Of a stretch of DNA of 54,844 nt, positions 41,090 to 49,646 are shown in pieces. The stretch is from positions 1 through 54,844 of the forward strand of contig JABXHI010000064.1 of assembly GCA_013393415.1 (NCBI GenBank). The letters are read 5' to 3'. The position numbers and the translations under genes were made by a program. The DNA is from Micrococcaceae bacterium (GTDB lineage: Bacteria; Actinomycetota; Actinomycetes; Actinomycetales; Micrococcaceae). The notes beneath the pieces are model-generated. The model searched no databases. It was not told the origin of the DNA and saw nothing but the letters and a program-made list of their open reading frames with translations. Within the stretch, counting starts at the first letter, position 1; every line of letters starts with the position of its first letter.

Positions 41090-44000
41090 TCACCCAGCCA
41101 TTACTGTCGCTGAAGTGCTTGCCATCAACTGCGCAATAACCTGGTGGACCCAAACTGTTGCTTCTTCGGTGGATAAGGCTCTTCCCCCAGCATCGTGGCG
41201 TCCGATGTCACCTATCCGTCTGGCACTGAGCGACTGCAATGCGCCATCGAGGACATCAGCGCCACGAGAATAGAACTCATAGGAATTGTCTCCGAGGCCA
41301 AAGAGTGCATACCTCAACTTCGACAGATCCGTCCCTTCTGCGAGTAGCTGCTGGTGAAGTGATCGAATATTTGTGGGCAGTTCACCTTCGTCGTAACTCG
41401 ACGTGACGATCAGCATGGGCGTATCGGTCTGCAAATCTTTTGGCTGCAGTGTCGCCAGATCAACCGTCGAAGCATTAGCGTGTTCGGCTACGACTCTGAC
41501 CAGCTCCTCGGACACGAGCTCCGCATTGCCAGATTCTGTAGCATAGGCAACCGTCAGCTTTGGCAGATGCTCGTTATTAAGCGACCTCTTAGCCTCTTCT
41601 TGGTGAGATTGCGGCATGTCAGTTGCTGAAGCAGCCAGCAGTCGAATCTGCCGGGCGTCCGTTAGTTTCGTGCGTGGACGAGGCTGCTCGTTGTTGGTTT
41701 TTTCGTGCGCATCTATGAGCAACCAGCCGTCCCAGGTAGTTGACCGTGCCAGATGTTTCCGCACAGCAGGCATCCCTACGTACTGTTTACCCTGGCCCGC
41801 CTGCAGATCATCCGCAATGCGCTGCGCCAGTTCACGTGCATCGCTTCGCTGCGTTGGTATGGTCCCGACGGGGCCACGGCGCAACCACCCGGCAATATAC
41901 AAGCCCGGTTCGACACGACCTGTTGCGGCGGCTTGTTCTTCAACTTCGACTAGCTGCTGACCATCAATGGCGCCGAAACCGATAGCGGTGATAATCGATG
42001 ACGACTCCACGACACGCTCCGCTGAATCGGTGGCCACGTGGAGCCCCACGACCGAGTCTTCGAGTCTCGTAACCTGTTTCGGCGTGTGACCAAAGTACCA
42101 ATTGATATGTAGCCATGCATCCGAGTCCGCTTCGCGCGCGGCGAGTTGGGAAACCAGCGCCACACGTGCATCGTCGTGACTCGTGACCTGCTGCGGATCA
42201 AACCCGGTGACCGCGTGCTGAACACCCCGCAGCTCAGAGATTTCGCGCAGCATCACCGGGTCGAATTTCGCATCGGACAGCGCAGAACGGCCGATGACGT
42301 TGATGGTGGTTAGTTGACTCGTCAGAGCTGCGTGAACCTCATCGTGAATGTCCGACGTTGCCAGCTGCTCACGCGTTGAAGCCAGCAACCGCACGATATC
42401 CATGGCGACGTTGCCATTGCCCACGATGGTAGTGCTATCACCAAGTTGCGGCAGCGGCTGATCAAACTGATGCTCAGTCGCATCCGCGTTAAGGAGTTTG
42501 GCAATACGTCCCGCCCCGTAGATGCTGTGCTCATCGGCCCCCGGCACAGGAAGTTTATTATCGGCCCCGAGTCCGGTGGCCACGACAACGGCATCGTGGG
42601 TGTCACGTAACTGCTGCAGCGTGATGTCAGCACCTGACGTGTGCATGGAGGAGACTTTTGGCGCGTGGAAAGATGGGCGACCATCAATCGCGACATCCGT
42701 TGCGACTTCCCCTGTGTGAACTCGGGTAGACCCCACAAATTCCACACCCTGACGCTCAAAGAGTTGGCTAAATTGCACCTCAACGTCTTTAGTCCCTTGA
42801 TGATCTGCTGCAACGCCTGAACGCACGAGTCCAAACGGGATAGGCGACTGATCGAACACGCTGACCCGCGCATCTGGCAGAGTGCGCTTGATCGCTTGAG
42901 CTGTGTAGCAACCCGCTGGTCCTGAGCCGACGATCGCGACCTGGGGAGCACGGTGGGCCGGCGCGGGAGCATCAACGGCTGTACCCCATTGGACGGGCAG
43001 CAGGTCCATGCCGCGAAATACCCAGCCACCCGCCTCCGCGGGTTTGTCTTGAATTAACCCGAGATTCGGCAGTTCAGTGAAAAGCTTTGGCAAGGCAGCG
43101 CCGAATTGCGCGCGAGCAACCCACGCTCCCAAGCAGACGTGCACCCCTTTACCGAAGGCAAGGTGGGCGCCTTCATCAGTTCGGGTGATGTCGAACCGCG
43201 CTGGATCACTCCAATAGCCCTCGTCACGATTGGCGGAGAGCAGACAAATACCAAGTTTGGCACCGGCTGGCAGGAAAGTATCCTGCAGCACCACATCGCG
43301 CGTGGTTTGGCGTGAATACATGCCAATCGGAGCAACCCAACGGATTGCTTCATCAAAGACGGCATCCCACTGGGAGGGGTCGTGTTGCACTATCGCGAGC
43401 TGCTCTGGGTTTTGCATCAACGCCCACGAAGCAACACCAATGGCATCACGGGGTTCATTCAAGCCACCACCGATCGTCATTTTGAGGTTGGCGCGGATCG
43501 ACTCGACCGGCATCTGATAATCGGGCAGCCGCACGAGCGCTGAAAGCAATGAGTCGTCTGGACGACGACGGTGCCAATCAAGCATTTCGTCGAGTGCTTC
43601 ATCGACTTCGTTATAGGACGCCTCCCCCTTGGCCCAGACAACGGGATCGTCTCCGTAGTTTCCAGTGGCATCGATCATCGTCTGCGACCAACGCTGCAAA
43701 TCTTGTTGCGTCACGTTGTGTAATCCGGTGACTGCACGCAAATTTTCAGCCGCATACGGCGCTGCGAAATCCCACACGAGATCCGCGCCGGAGCCTTTCG
43801 CTTTGAGTTCTTCTAGGTAGCGCACTGCATTGCGCTCGAAAATTGGCATCCAGGTCTTTTTCACCACAGATGGTCGCAACACCGGTTGCCAGGCCTGCCG
43901 TTCAACGCGGTGCTCCGGGTCGTCTTTACGCAACATGGAATGTCCCATGGCACGGATCATCAGCGAACCTTGCTCGTTGGCAGAATAAGTTTCCTGATCC

Positions 44001-44179
44001 AGCTCAGTGTCGTGTACGGCATCATAGGACGTCACAAGATACCGTCCGACAGCAGGGACCCAATGGACGCCGCCTTCGTTGCGCAGCCGCTCAAAGATGG
44101 GAAACGGGTCGCGATACAGTTCAGAGATCGTCACCCAGTCGGCCACCGGAGCCTGTTGTACGTTGCCATGATGAGTCAT
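41090..44179 (-). CDS. cytochrome P450 fused to FprA-type reductase and flavodoxin
   Basis: 1029 aa with three parts. Residues 1-400 form a P450: I-helix GGGLNEPRD (237-245) without the usual Thr, EAIR (277-280, ExxR) and heme loop FGKGVHVCLG with ligand Cys349. Residues about 412-810 form an adrenodoxin-reductase/FprA-like flavoprotein: FAD motif VGSGPAGCYTAQ (417-428), PIPFGLVRSGVAADH, NADP motif GNGNVAMD (587-594) and a C-terminal GWLRRGPVGTIPTQ. Residues about 873-1025 form a CysJ/MioC-type flavodoxin: AYATESGNAE (FMN phosphate loop) and GLGDNSYEFY. Electrons can run NADPH to FAD to FMN to heme within one chain, so the protein should be self-sufficient. The substrate is unknown. AAAGGA precedes ATG 44179, 6 nt after the HtaA-domain gene, so they form an operon facing a LysR gene. 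Confidence 0.9.
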   Translation of the reverse strand: MTHHGNVQQAPVADWVTISELYRDPFPIFERLRNEGGVHWVPAVGRYLVTSYDAVHDTELDQETYSANEQGSLMIRAMGHSMLRKDDPEHRVERQAWQPVLRPSVVKKTWMPIFERNAVRYLEELKAKGSGADLVWDFAAPYAAENLRAVTGLHNVTQQDLQRWSQTMIDATGNYGDDPVVWAKGEASYNEVDEALDEMLDWHRRRPDDSLLSALVRLPDYQMPVESIRANLKMTIGGGLNEPRDAIGVASWALMQNPEQLAIVQHDPSQWDAVFDEAIRWVAPIGMYSRQTTRDVVLQDTFLPAGAKLGICLLSANRDEGYWSDPARFDITRTDEGAHLAFGKGVHVCLGAWVARAQFGAALPKLFTELPNLGLIQDKPAEAGGWVFRGMDLLPVQWGTAVDAPAPAHRAPQVAIVGSGPAGCYTAQAIKRTLPDARVSVFDQSPIPFGLVRSGVAADHQGTKDVEVQFSQLFERQGVEFVGSTRVHTGEVATDVAIDGRPSFHAPKVSSMHTSGADITLQQLRDTHDAVVVATGLGADNKLPVPGADEHSIYGAGRIAKLLNADATEHQFDQPLPQLGDSTTIVGNGNVAMDIVRLLASTREQLATSDIHDEVHAALTSQLTTINVIGRSALSDAKFDPVMLREISELRGVQHAVTGFDPQQVTSHDDARVALVSQLAAREADSDAWLHINWYFGHTPKQVTRLEDSVVGLHVATDSAERVVESSSIITAIGFGAIDGQQLVEVEEQAAATGRVEPGLYIAGWLRRGPVGTIPTQRSDARELAQRIADDLQAGQGKQYVGMPAVRKHLARSTTWDGWLLIDAHEKTNNEQPRPRTKLTDARQIRLLAASATDMPQSHQEEAKRSLNNEHLPKLTVAYATESGNAELVSEELVRVVAEHANASTVDLATLQPKDLQTDTPMLIVTSSYDEGELPTNIRSLHQQLLAEGTDLSKLRYALFGLGDNSYEFYSRGADVLDGALQSLSARRIGDIGRHDAGGRALSTEEATVWVHQVIAQLMASTSATVMAG

Positions 44180-44185
44180 GTGGTG

Positions 44186-44644
44186 TCAGTCCTTTCCTAT
44201 CCATACGATGCGCACTGGATCAAAAGCGGTGTTTGTGCGGTAATTTCCCATAAACACGTCCGCTCCTTCTTCCATTAACTGGGTCGAGCCGGCGCTATCA
44301 TTTCCGAGCTCGACGTGGACCATTGGCATCCGGGCGTTTTCTTCAAACGGATCGGTGATGGTCAATGCCGTCATATCGTCGACCTGCTGTAGCCAAGGCT
44401 GCTGAATCCTGACGGCCAGCATGCCGTGGTGTCCAGTGAATTGCAGACTTCCGATAAAACGAAGCGCATCAGCAGAGGTGCGTTGCGTATCCAGAGGAAA
44501 GAAGGTCTCCTCCGTTTCCAGAAGTTCGGCACCTTCAAGTGCATACATGTGCCCATCACTCATGCGATTAATGTAGTCGCGAAATGGTTCGTGCACGCCC
44601 CATGCGAGACCTGCGATCTGCGCCTTCTGCTCGAAAATTTTCAT
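44186..44644 (-). CDS. cytoplasmic HtaA-domain protein
   Basis: 152 aa from ATG 44644 (MKIFEQKAQIAGLAWGVHE); a longer open frame overlaps the LysR promoter and is unlikely. It matches the HtaA domain (heme-binding in corynebacterial HtaA/HtaB): opening GLAWGVHEPFRDYINRMSDG, middle LRFIGSLQFTGHHGMLAVRIQQPWLQ, ending NTAFDPVRIVWIG. Classic HtaA proteins are surface-exposed with signal peptides and membrane anchors; this one has neither and contains a single domain. Its position 6 nt before the P450 fusion suggests it delivers heme or handles a hydrophobic substrate for it. The latter is inference. Confidence 0.7.
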   Translation of the reverse strand: MKIFEQKAQIAGLAWGVHEPFRDYINRMSDGHMYALEGAELLETEETFFPLDTQRTSADALRFIGSLQFTGHHGMLAVRIQQPWLQQVDDMTALTITDPFEENARMPMVHVELGNDSAGSTQLMEEGADVFMGNYRTNTAFDPVRIVWIGKD

Positions 44645-44716
44645 GCTACTCACATCACTTACTGTGACGCATGCAATAAACAAGTGCAACTGAGGATAAT
44701 CGTGTTTTATGTGCAG

Positions 44717-44722
44717 TAAAAT
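44717..44722 (+). promoter_or_regulatory. -10 element of the LysR gene, predicted leaderless
   Basis: TAAAAT is followed by 6 nt and ATG 44729; no ribosome site is visible. The -35 is unclear. The region between the divergent LysR and HtaA genes is only 84 nt, so both promoters overlap the probable LysR operator. Confidence 0.4.
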
Positions 44723-44728
44723 TTCGGT

Positions 44729-45670
44729 ATGGTGAACACTTCCGGAACCCAACCCACCCTGCGGCAGCTTGAGTTATTTATCGCTGCGGCTGAGAATGGC
44801 TCGTTTGCCGCTGCAGCGGATGCAGTATTCGTCACCCCGAATGCGGTTTCATCAGCCGTCACGGCGTTGGAATCGATTTTTGACACCCAGCTATTTATCC
44901 GTCGTCGCGCGAAAGGGCTCACGACAACAGCCGCGGGGCAGGACTTAGTGATTCGTGCCAGTGAATTATTGGATCACGCAAAAGAACTGCCGCTCCACAT
45001 TGGCAATGTGGGCAGTGTGCCACGGGGGCAGGTCAAAGTTGGATGCTACTCCACGCTGGCAGCAACAGTCGTTCCGGAACTATGGGCCCAGACTGCTCAT
45101 CACCTACCGGCGGTGCAACTAGACATCGAAGAAGGTCCCGTTGAAATACTGGCTGAGAAGCTACTGAATGGCCACCTCGATATGATGATCTCGTATCGAG
45201 TCGGCCTCCCCACAGGCATCTTGAGCGAGGAATTATTTCAGACCTCACCGCACGTAGCATTGCCGGAGGAACACCCGATGGCTGCGCTACCCGCCGTCAA
45301 ACTTGAGTCCCTAGAGCAAGATCCCTTGATTCTGCTGGATTTACCTCCGGCCGGGGACAACACGCTTCGGTTGTTACACGAACGCGGCCTCCGTCCGTGG
45401 GTCATTCATCGATCCACAAGTTATGAGACCGTCCGTTCGATGGTTGCACGCGGCTTCGGCTACTCACTGTTTTTTCAGCAGACGATGACCGACATGTCAT
45501 ACGAAGGGCTACGACTCGTACACCGAGAGATTGAGCCACCCCTCAACGCCGAACCGGTCGTGTTGTCCCACCACATGGATGCGAAACCAACACGTCGAGC
45601 AAGTGCCGTTGCCAAGCTAATCACCAACATGACCGACACCTCGAAACACAAGCCAAATCGCGAGCACTAG
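44729..45670 (+). CDS. LysR-family regulator (probable regulator of the HtaA-P450 operon)
   Basis: 313 aa. The N-terminal winged helix is LRQLELFIAAAENGSFAAAADAVFVTPNAVSSAVTALESIFDTQLFIRR, followed by the linker helix and a periplasmic-binding-protein-like effector domain (GQVKVGCYSTLAATVVPEL, LDMMISYRVG). It is divergent from the HtaA-P450 operon, the standard position for a LysR activator of that operon. Its stop overlaps by 4 nt the stop of a second, convergent LysR gene. Confidence 0.9.
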   Translation: MVNTSGTQPTLRQLELFIAAAENGSFAAAADAVFVTPNAVSSAVTALESIFDTQLFIRRRAKGLTTTAAGQDLVIRASELLDHAKELPLHIGNVGSVPRGQVKVGCYSTLAATVVPELWAQTAHHLPAVQLDIEEGPVEILAEKLLNGHLDMMISYRVGLPTGILSEELFQTSPHVALPEEHPMAALPAVKLESLEQDPLILLDLPPAGDNTLRLLHERGLRPWVIHRSTSYETVRSMVARGFGYSLFFQQTMTDMSYEGLRLVHREIEPPLNAEPVVLSHHMDAKPTRRASAVAKLITNMTDTSKHKPNREH

Positions 45671-46754: not shown

Positions 46755-47897
46755 ATGACTACGACGAAACCCAGCAAGCGGCTCCGAGGCTCATTCAAAG
46801 GCATTGCAGTCGCCGCTGTTACCGCACTTTCCCTATCCGCGTGCGCCCAAACGGAAGCGCAAGACGGTGCCGAAGAATTCAACTTTGTGCTTGCGAACGG
46901 AGCCCAGGTTGGCACACCCCATGAGGCGGTACAGGATCGCTACCTGGAGATGATCGAAGAACGCACTGACGGTCGCGTCACATTCGACCGCACCGACTTC
47001 GAAGTACTCTGCTCGCTTGATGAAATTGCCGAGTGCGTTAGTGATGGGCGGGCCGATATCGGCACCACAATTACCGACTATACCCCGCATATGCTGCCAT
47101 CTATGTCTGTGACCTCGATCATCGGTATGAACACTGACATGCAAGCCGCGATTAGCGCCATGTACGACGTGCACAATGAATACGAACCAGCCAAACAGGA
47201 CCTCGAAGACAACAACCTGCATCTGGCGAGCGCCTGGCCGGTTGGCACACTATTCCTCGGCTCCCAAGAACCCGTAGACAACCTCGACGACGTTGACGGC
47301 CTCCAAGCTCGTGCAGCCGGACCGGTCACCCAGCAGGTTCTTCAAGATGCAGGAATGAATATTTCTGCCATCACAGCGGCCGAAACGTATGAAGCACTCC
47401 AGCGCGGAGTCATCGATTCAGTTGCTTCGGCCCTGGACTTTGCCGTGCAATACGCGGTCGCGGAACAGGCGCCGTACTGGACTGACCCCGGGCTCGGTCA
47501 ATATACCTCATACGGAATGTGGTGGAACAAAGATGCCTATGAGTCTCTTCCAGAGGATCTTCAAGCGACCGTTGATGAAGTCACCGATGAGCTCAACTAT
47601 GGCGAAGCAATGAACGCGTACAACGAGCGCATTGACGAAGTTTGCCAGAGCATGATCGACTCCCCGGATGTAGAGAATTTTGATCGCTGGGATGATGCCG
47701 AAGCCGAGCGTTGGAATAATGAGATCGGCGATCGCGCGGAAGAACTCTGGGTTGACGTTGTCAGTGAGTACAACTTTGAAAATCCCGACGAGTACCTTGC
47801 CGCCTACAAGGAGCACTACAACGCACATGAGTCCAATGACAACGTCGCCGACGGCGCTGCAGAATGTGTAGATCGCTGGCAGGAGCAAAACGGCTAA
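46755..47897 (+). CDS. TRAP-transporter (DctP-type) substrate-binding lipoprotein, orphan
   Basis: 380 aa, ATG 46755 with AGGACTCATCACT before it. The signal peptide ends in lipobox LSAC. The mature domain fits DctP/TAXI-like TRAP receptors: FNFVLANGAQVGTPHEAVQDRYLEMIEERTDGRVTFD, VDNLDDVDGLQARAAGPVTQQVL, and AETYEALQRGVIDSVASALDFAVQY, the typical hairpin before the ligand-binding Arg region. It binds small organic acids in the family. No DctQ or DctM membrane genes are adjacent, so the transporter partner must be elsewhere. A perfect hairpin follows. Confidence 0.85.
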   Translation: MTTTKPSKRLRGSFKGIAVAAVTALSLSACAQTEAQDGAEEFNFVLANGAQVGTPHEAVQDRYLEMIEERTDGRVTFDRTDFEVLCSLDEIAECVSDGRADIGTTITDYTPHMLPSMSVTSIIGMNTDMQAAISAMYDVHNEYEPAKQDLEDNNLHLASAWPVGTLFLGSQEPVDNLDDVDGLQARAAGPVTQQVLQDAGMNISAITAAETYEALQRGVIDSVASALDFAVQYAVAEQAPYWTDPGLGQYTSYGMWWNKDAYESLPEDLQATVDEVTDELNYGEAMNAYNERIDEVCQSMIDSPDVENFDRWDDAEAERWNNEIGDRAEELWVDVVSEYNFENPDEYLAAYKEHYNAHESNDNVADGAAECVDRWQEQNG

Positions 47898-48104: not shown

Positions 48105-49646
48105 GTGGCCCAATTGGTGTATTCGACCCGGTTAGCGCAGCTCTGTGCAGCTACCGGCGTGGAAACCGTGTTTATTCCAGAACAACTCTGGGATTCGCCA
48201 TTGACCGAGGCGTTTGACGATGCTGAAGGCAATATAGCTACCGCTGACGGTATCGCAGAGATTGCCTTTAATATCGTCGCAACTGGGACCGCCGACGGCG
48301 CCGTCATGGCTGCTGCGGGCTACCGCCATGCCGGTGGGCCACCGGCCGCCGTTGTTTTGGATGCCTCCTCCGACTTTCTCGGCAGCTTGAATAAGATCGG
48401 CCAGGCCGTACGCGATAAGCTCTCGATGGTGATCATCCTGGTCGAACCAGAGGATTCATTCAACGGAGTGCGAGCCAACTGGGCAGGACTCATCACCGGC
48501 GTTGGTGCTGTGGCAGTACCTGCTGGCGAAGCCGAGAATATTTCCCAGGCGATGGTCGATGTCATCGATGGGTTGAATAAACAACTGCCTGCCGTGTTGC
48601 AAGTGGATCCGGAGAATCTCAGTGCCGAGATCACCGATGAAGCCGAACCACAATTTGAAGCTCCTCGAACCGGTGCCGTCCCACAGACTTCTCAGGTCGT
48701 GCGCGCCGCAAAAACGCTCGCGCAAGCGCGTTGGCCGCTGATTATCGCTGGTCGTGGAGCACGACATGCGAAATCAGCAATCGTCTCGCTTGCTGATGCC
48801 ACTGGAGCCCTCTTGGCCACCACCACGGGGGCACACGGCCTGTTGGAAGACCAAGCATTCAACATCGGGACGTTGGGCAAAATCTCGACGCCAACCACCG
48901 CTGAGTTGGCACGCGGCGCCGACGTTATCGTCGTGTTTGGTGCAGCGCTTGATGACTGGACGACGCGAGACGGCAAACTCATCAACCCCAGTGCGGCCAT
49001 CATCCAGGTCGACACCTCACCCTGGGCGGTGGGACGCTTTAGTCCGGTCTCGCAGTCGATGATCGCTGATGCACAAGCAGTGGCCACCGCACTTGAAGTC
49101 GAAACAAGCAAGCTGATTGCGGAACCCAAAACCGGGTACCGCACCGAGCACACGCTCGAGCAACTAAAAACGAAATACTGGAACTCGCGCCCAATTCCAG
49201 AACATCAACTCCGCGAAGATACCGTCGATCCACGCGCGTTCCTGGAGCGACTCGAAGAAGTACTGCCCACCGAGCGCACCGTCGTCGTCGACCAATCAGC
49301 CCAGGCAGGATACGCCACCAGCTACCTGCGGGTGCGGGATCATAAGGGCTACATGTTCTTCCCTTCCGGTGCAGTCGAGGCCGGCATGGGCGCTTCCATC
49401 GCGAGGGATGATCGCACGATTGTGGTGGTCACGCACCAGTCTGGGCTTATGGATTCACTGTCTGACTTCCGTGCTGCCGTCGATTATTTGCAACGTGGCG
49501 CACTTGTGGTGTTCCAGCAGGAAGCACCCGTCGCAGAGCTAGCACGCTATTACGGCCTGCCGGTACATGAGATTACGAGTCTTGAGCAGCTGAACGAAGA
49601 AATGTTCGAATCCGGTGTTGTGGTACTGGCCGTCCAACAGCACTAG
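48105..49646 (+). CDS. degenerate thiamine-diphosphate-dependent enzyme (acetolactate synthase-like)
   Basis: 513 aa from GTG 48105 with CGAGGAGGTATT, an excellent ribosome site. The layout is PYR domain (1-170), central domain (about 190-330: PLIIAGRGARHAKSAI, GALLATTTGAHGLL, ADVIVVFGAALDDW) and PP domain (about 380-513). The central domain is well conserved, but cofactor residues are not. The PYR glutamate of the HEQGAAHAADGYAR block appears as TADGAVMAAAGYRH, and the Mg/diphosphate GDG...N motif appears as VVVTHQSGLMDSLSDFRAA. Classical ThDP catalysis is therefore doubtful. It precedes a luciferase-like monooxygenase by 12 nt, suggesting a joint but unknown role. Confidence 0.75.
   Translation: MAQLVYSTRLAQLCAATGVETVFIPEQLWDSPLTEAFDDAEGNIATADGIAEIAFNIVATGTADGAVMAAAGYRHAGGPPAAVVLDASSDFLGSLNKIGQAVRDKLSMVIILVEPEDSFNGVRANWAGLITGVGAVAVPAGEAENISQAMVDVIDGLNKQLPAVLQVDPENLSAEITDEAEPQFEAPRTGAVPQTSQVVRAAKTLAQARWPLIIAGRGARHAKSAIVSLADATGALLATTTGAHGLLEDQAFNIGTLGKISTPTTAELARGADVIVVFGAALDDWTTRDGKLINPSAAIIQVDTSPWAVGRFSPVSQSMIADAQAVATALEVETSKLIAEPKTGYRTEHTLEQLKTKYWNSRPIPEHQLREDTVDPRAFLERLEEVLPTERTVVVDQSAQAGYATSYLRVRDHKGYMFFPSGAVEAGMGASIARDDRTIVVVTHQSGLMDSLSDFRAAVDYLQRGALVVFQQEAPVAELARYYGLPVHEITSLEQLNEEMFESGVVVLAVQQH

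Follow-up and report, generated by a model that had tools for sequence, protein, structure and literature searches.

A conserved P450–FprA–flavodoxin fusion and its frequent neighbour, an apparently cytosolic HtaA-domain protein with a possible role in P450 heme supply

In the single-chain enzyme CYP102 (P450 BM3), the flavin mononucleotide (FMN) module stands before the flavin adenine dinucleotide (FAD) module. The reductase of CYP102 is classed as a diflavin reductase of the P450-reductase family in sections of PMC9687028, which also describe an FAD reductase and a flavodoxin-like FMN protein as the electron carriers of P450cin and quote the title of the paper on structure 6g71, by which that P450 is tied to a papaverine pathway. 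For the strain of CYP1232A24/F1, excerpts of a review report a proposed cluster of two P450s, a flavodoxin and a flavodoxin reductase. The CYP116B type, with OhpA and CYP116B234, is represented by self-sufficient P450s in 2-hydroxyphenylacetate breakdown through the homogentisate route (excerpts of PMC11889516). Here we describe a locus on a 54,844-nt contig of a Micrococcaceae bacterium (assembly GCA_013393415.1, contig JABXHI010000064.1; the whole stretch is called the window below), in which one gene encodes a P450, an FprA-type reductase module and a flavodoxin in a single chain and is preceded by a gene for a single-domain HtaA protein. This fusion make-up was not found described in the open-access library searched, nor was a paper found there that joins an HtaA domain, a P450 and an operon.

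The fusion gene occupies positions 41090 to 44179 of the reverse strand and encodes 1029 aa in one frame. As an earlier note on this DNA had proposed, three Pfam domains follow one another from the N- to the C-terminus, all above their cut-offs: p450 (64.2 bits), Pyr_redox_2 (45.3 bits) and Flavodoxin_1 (79.8 bits). The best solved match of the P450 domain (residues 1-400; 42980 to 44179, reverse strand) is 6g71 (539 bits), which we take to be CYP1232A24, the structure entry itself printing only "Cytochrome P450"; membership of a P450 family is set at 40% or more identity to named members. Next come 8u09 (153 bits) and entries for GcoA (~144 bits), which are listed in part as aromatic O-demethylase. 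The heme-loop Cys349 (43133-43135, reverse strand) and the I-helix segment GGG-x-NEPRD (GGGLNEPRD in the window, residues 237-245; 43445-43471, reverse strand) do not vary in 25 of 25 aligned fusions. The missing I-helix Thr had been read in the note as a hint of atypical chemistry. However, since 6g71 has the same segment, the Thr-less I-helix is a trait of a wider group, and that hint loses its basis.

The FAD/NAD(P) module (approximately residues 405-862; 41594 to 42967, reverse strand) is of the adrenodoxin reductase (AdR)/FprA type, with matches to 1cjc (120 bits) and 1lqt (107 bits). In its NADP segment, the GRRG of AdR and FprA is replaced by GRSA, and R631 and S632 are unvaried in the 25 aligned fusions. 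Because the arginine pair of GRR reads GRS here, either NADPH or NADH may be the donor, and the coenzyme preference may differ from that of AdR and FprA. The flavodoxin domain (approximately residues 872-1029; 41093 to 41566, reverse strand) is closest among solved structures to cindoxin (4oxx, 62.6 bits), followed by CysJ (50.4 bits). The note's flavodoxin call thus stands at the level of the domain, with the CysJ type giving way to cindoxin. The predicted model of the whole fusion is moderate (pLDDT 77.7, pTM 0.56) and low around the heme loop.

A genome scan found 112 relatives, of which the best 80 were kept for all locus counts (L and G numbers below are our labels for loci and genomes). 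Among these, 67 are fused and 13 are stand-alone P450s with 59-62% identity to the window P450. The three domains lie in one uninterrupted frame in 61 loci, and an assembly or frame-shift artefact was rejected on this ground. In four further loci a stop or a change of frame interrupts the fusion (L139, L142, L144 and L087, the last with an in-frame stop inside the flavodoxin part), and two more are truncated at contig ends (L090, L135). The fusion is present in six of nine genomes of the window's genus, and its named hosts include Yaniella, Enteractinococcus, Citricoccus, Tersicoccus, Agrococcus, Leucobacter, Microbacterium and Brevibacterium, as well as the gammaproteobacteria Kushneria, Halomonas, Larsenimonas and Terasakiispira (L119-L123, L125, L143). 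In a P450 tree (FastTree, midpoint-rooted, branch support not inspected, HtaA states entered by hand), the fused forms make up one clade with the 13 stand-alone forms as sister group, and the gammaproteobacterial fusions are nested inside the actinobacterial fused clade. This topology suggests a probable single origin of the fusion, followed by transfer between phyla. A cluster of HcaD-type reductases occurs at 13/13 stand-alone loci and a 2Fe-2S ferredoxin cluster was detected at 6/13; neither occurs at any fused locus, which argues that the fusion accompanied a change of electron carrier. Considering the 61 full single-frame copies and the single fused clade, the P450–FprA–flavodoxin chain is, as judged by sequence comparison, a natural fusion that has been conserved, with partners of P450cin-like type, and no one-off.

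A plasmid-borne element was rejected for now, as a plasmid search at E <=1e-100 returned only two records, which match the P450 part alone. In G008, a genus member without the fusion, an 88-aa open piece (C3:18768-18986, inside L044) is 48% identical to the flavodoxin end. It sits between frames sized like the flanks of the fusion in other genus members, lacks such a P450 alongside and is likely a relic of fusion gene loss. Two relatives within the genus (L042 and L043; genomes G005 and G006) also have FprA and flavodoxin as individual genes close to an unrelated P450, a three-gene version of the electron chain.

The gene preceding the fusion (44186 to 44644, reverse strand) encodes a single-domain HtaA protein of 152 aa from the ATG at 44644. 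Its assignment in the earlier note withstood both profile and fold comparisons. The protein matches PF04213 with 57.5 bits against a curated cut-off of 24, and a profile built from its relatives finds 6jsa as best solved match (52.6 bits). When its predicted model (mean pLDDT 95.1) was searched with Foldseek, 16 of 16 solved matches at E <=0.001 were HtaA, HtaB or ChtA entries, with moderate superposition (TMq 0.43-0.74, root-mean-square deviation 5-10 A). The coordinates confirm the close spacing already noted: htaA runs to the end of its stop codon at 44186, and after a gap of 6 nt the fusion begins with its ATG at 44179. Within the end of htaA, a possible ribosome-binding site of the fusion, AGGAAAGG, is seen directly at 44191 to 44198 (reverse strand). 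In three relatives (L039, L040, L068), the called genes overlap by 4 nt, suggesting translational coupling of htaA and the fusion.

No recognisable signal peptide was found on the window HtaA protein; a start at a far-upstream TTG (44752) would add a mildly hydrophobic stretch (1.57, 17-residue scale). In relatives, an in-frame stop lies seven (L084) or three (L085) residues ahead of the HtaA domain match, leaving no space for a signal, and the tails of fusion-linked copies are at most 25 aa long and hydrophobic in none. Because of these stops and tails, HtaA is most likely cytosolic, in line with the absence of a signal peptide reported in the note.

According to parts of PMC12494546, heme in CR domains is held by an axial Tyr with a His or Tyr as helper, and its propionates are bound by another Tyr and a Ser; the spectra of CR domains show a Soret band near 405 nm and a second band at 624 nm. 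In the window protein, Tyr24 (44573 to 44575) aligns with the Tyr that ligates heme axially in solved HtaA domains, His72 (44429 to 44431) with the helper His and Tyr135 (44240 to 44242) with the propionate-binding Tyr, all on the reverse strand. Equivalents of the three residues are kept in 39/39 fusion-linked copies examined, at identities to the window protein as low as 29-30%. The further propionate Ser position is Ser or Thr in 30/39 of these copies and Pro in the window HtaA. For comparison, among 17 surface-type HtaA domains (one domain kept per frame), the axial Tyr is present in 17, the helper His in 13 and the propionate Tyr in 15. The aligned contact residues suggest that the apparently cytosolic HtaA would bind heme.

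The pairing of HtaA and fusion, first noticed in the window, is conserved. HtaA lies in the examined stretch of 41/67 fused loci (in L090 in part only) and of 0/13 stand-alone loci. Four gene orders were observed: upstream on the same strand (13 fused loci), on the opposite strand, separated from the P450 by LysR (19), between LysR and P450 (8), and downstream (1). Seventeen of the 19 loci in the second group were sorted automatically, and L101 and L105 were placed by positions, their LysR lying inside very long frames. An in-frame fusion of HtaA to the P450 in Tersicoccus and Arthrobacter was considered and discarded: HtaA is encoded there on the opposite strand or in a different frame, and the long N-terminal extensions of these fusions are not HtaA. 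In Arthrobacter terricola (L092, 7649-12936), a second P450 (45% identical), a flavodoxin-like match and HtaA directly precede the fusion, which puts two P450s into a single gene row.

Single-domain HtaA genes also neighbour unrelated P450s. At 18 other HtaA loci, hand-picked from the hit list in 16 genomes, a P450 lies within 6 kb in 10 cases and within 1 kb in five, against 0.47 and 0.13 expected from P450 density. Distances were read manually, genome sizes for the expectation were rounded, and L191 and L192 were omitted as they had been chosen after a P450 or FprA was seen on their contigs. Of the 18, only L193 and L209 belong to the genus group that makes up much of L173-L190. Some of the P450s are similar in pairs (L205/L207 91%, L203/L204 88%, L199/L208 72% identical), so that about seven independent P450 groups remain, with 22-36% identity between groups. 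L199 and L208 share the gene row FprA-Fld-P450-HtaA. L191, the same gene as L182, shows the row HtaA-FprA-Fld; a hydrophobic stretch (1.76) lies in frame upstream of its HtaA, and an export signal is possible for this copy. Other HtaA neighbours, including alpha-amylase-type, protease and FAD-oxidase genes, have no common theme. In a phylum-wide sample (396 genomes, E <=1e-12), HtaA was found in eight genomes besides the window's own, always in frames of at least 390 aa and with surface-type features where these were read. The single-domain type thus seems restricted to closer relatives.

Around the 80 loci, gene clusters that recur in more than one genus (genus names entered by hand), each named from one representative, point to aromatic acid breakdown. 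Of the 67 fused loci, 15 carry HpaD, 20 HpaG-like/FAH, 16 HpaH-like and 13 MobA-like genes, the last being relatives of 3-hydroxybenzoate hydroxylase (2dkh, 641 bits). At least one of these four clusters occurs at 24/67 fused loci, and at least two of the four occur at 19/67 fused and 0/13 stand-alone loci. The naming differs in firmness: representatives of HpaD, HpaE, HpaA and FeaR exceed their cut-offs, HpaH falls just under (345.5 of 351.5 bits) and HpaF far under, the HpaG-like one passes broad models (fumarylacetoacetate-hydrolase-family, PRK08245) and fails the HpaG models, and the aldehyde dehydrogenase cluster contains further enzymes of that class besides HpaE. In six of the seven gammaproteobacterial loci, the nearest clustered gene ahead of the fusion is MobA-like; hpa-type, aldehyde dehydrogenase and FeaR-type genes lie around it, with TRAP (tripartite ATP-independent periplasmic) transporter genes in five of the seven. 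The window's own genome encodes HpaD and HpaE above their cut-offs, side by side, and two MobA-like proteins (59 and 50% identity).

From the domain order, the conserved fusion, the conserved heme-contact residues and the gene linkage observed here, we propose a self-sufficient arylacetate hydroxylase or O-demethylase with a dedicated cytosolic HtaA that loads its heme, under LysR control. We give this account as a whole an even chance of being right. NAD(P)H would reduce the FAD of the FprA-type module, and electrons would pass singly from FAD to the C-terminal flavodoxin and on to the heme of the N-terminal P450. The P450 would oxidise an aromatic acid, most likely an arylacetate, by ring hydroxylation (e.g., at position 3) or removal of a ring O-methyl group. 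The phenolic acid formed, which we infer to be 3-hydroxyphenylacetate or another phenolic arylacetate, would enter the homoprotocatechuate meta-cleavage pathway. HtaA would hold ferric heme by Tyr24, aided by His72 and Tyr135, and load or reload it onto the fused P450; such heme insertion is plausible. Related HtaA proteins may load other P450s likewise, and the divergent LysR regulator would respond to the substrate. More tentatively, cytosolic HtaA proteins could constitute a dedicated heme-delivery family for bacterial P450s: an internalised hemophore fold that passes Tyr-held ferric heme to apo-P450, the heme perhaps being freed on its reduction by the FprA-flavodoxin module.

Several observations weigh against this proposal. 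On the pathway side, 43/67 fused loci show none of the four clusters and 2/13 stand-alone loci show one. HpaD and HpaE of the window's genome are encoded on a contig other than that of the fusion; both genes occur in G004 and G008, which lack the fusion; and in G002 (88% complete), which carries it, neither HpaD nor HpaE was found over the cut-offs. As for HtaA, it is missing from the examined stretch of 26/67 fused loci and is therefore not needed everywhere. It is absent from 11/11 Brevibacterium and 7/7 gammaproteobacterial loci, 3/12 Leucobacter loci, the single Kocuria, Pseudoglutamicibacter, Zimmermannella and Micrococcales 31B loci, and the cut locus L135. Conversely, no P450 lies within roughly 8-9 kb at 8/18 of the other HtaA loci, and none was found within the 1.5-kb flanks scanned at L173-L190.

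The sparse pathway clusters (any of them in only 24/67 fused loci) also fit a P450 that acts on other substrates, such as methoxylated alkaloid or lignin aromatics, the Hpa neighbours then marking general aromatic islands. The papaverine title attached to 6g71, the nearest solved relative, and the aromatic O-demethylase GcoA among the nearest solved matches point the same way. However, the MobA-like gene that comes as the nearest clustered gene ahead of six of the seven gammaproteobacterial fusions, within an hpa-type/FeaR-type block and mostly with TRAP genes, speaks against this alternative, which we consider possible but on balance doubtful.

Conserved heme-contact residues are compatible with either direction of transfer, and HtaA might be no loader of apo-P450 but a heme buffer or salvage factor, which recovers heme when P450 is damaged or uncoupled. 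In parts of PMC8027190, the HtaA-like Dietzia protein DtHtaA is reported to gain a heme absorbance peak after in vitro incubation with a P450 preparation. The same parts, however, place DtHtaA in the uptake of external heme, on membrane vesicles, and a dedicated salvage factor next to several kinds of P450 would in our judgement be unusual, which makes salvage unlikely. Still less probable is that HtaA binds the organic substrate or partners the reductase with heme not its ligand. The row in L191, where HtaA accompanies FprA and flavodoxin with the nearest detected P450 5.7 kb away, would suit it, but an axial Tyr, helper His and propionate Tyr unvaried in all 39 copies despite such low sequence identity disfavour substrate binding, which the note had raised. 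Finally, HtaA might be carried along in catabolic islands and be functionally unconnected to the P450. This is the least probable alternative, for although shared islands can travel together and the loci lacking either partner would agree with it, the linkage persists through four gene orders and is seen again with roughly seven groups of unrelated P450s.

The LysR-type regulator, divergent as described in the note, was identified by profile match (44729 to 45670, forward strand). The 84 bp between its ATG and that of htaA (44645 to 44728) likely hold divergent promoters, and LysR relatives recur next to fused and stand-alone P450s of this group. Farther out, a thiamine pyrophosphate (TPP)-dependent enzyme (48105 to 49646, forward strand) is a possible pathway neighbour; a cluster of such enzymes (representative L084, TPP_enzyme_M) recurs at nine fused loci in five genera. 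A TRAP-type solute-binding gene (DctP, window 46755-47897) adjoins a second divergent LysR gene, and the long frame next downstream of it is the TPP enzyme rather than TRAP permease genes.

The fusion adds a single-chain P450 design, combining an adrenodoxin-reductase-type reductase with a flavodoxin, and could be a useful biocatalyst scaffold. It also gains a likely pathway in aromatic acid breakdown. More surprising is the HtaA that repeatedly neighbours P450s and is apparently cytosolic. Heme supply to bacterial P450s is little understood, and a conserved protein of heme-binding type beside several unrelated P450s makes this question directly testable.

Compared with known systems, the window fusion shares its P450 domain and the I-helix GGGLNEPRD with CYP1232A24/6g71. 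The stand-alone P450s of Arthrobacter and others likewise have LysR relatives nearby; they differ in being unfused, with no HtaA in the examined stretch and an HcaD-type reductase cluster. The system of P450cin, cindoxin reductase and cindoxin uses the same partner types, and the window flavodoxin is closest to cindoxin; there, however, three separate proteins serve a different P450, whereas the window joins all parts in one chain. As the note had held, the architecture is other than those of CYP116B and CYP102. CYP116B-type enzymes carry FMN and 2Fe-2S reductase domains and no FprA or flavodoxin module, whereas no Fer2 or related domain was among the Pfam matches of the fusion to E 0.1. CYP102 likewise unites FAD and FMN modules with its P450 in a single chain, but the FAD module of the window is of the adrenodoxin reductase/FprA type rather than that of an FNR-type diflavin reductase, and its flavodoxin is C-terminal. 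The hemophore domains of Corynebacterium HtaA and ChtA, finally, have the same fold and the same heme-contact residues as the window HtaA; they are secreted or surface-bound, whereas the window protein is apparently cytosolic and encoded beside a P450 gene.

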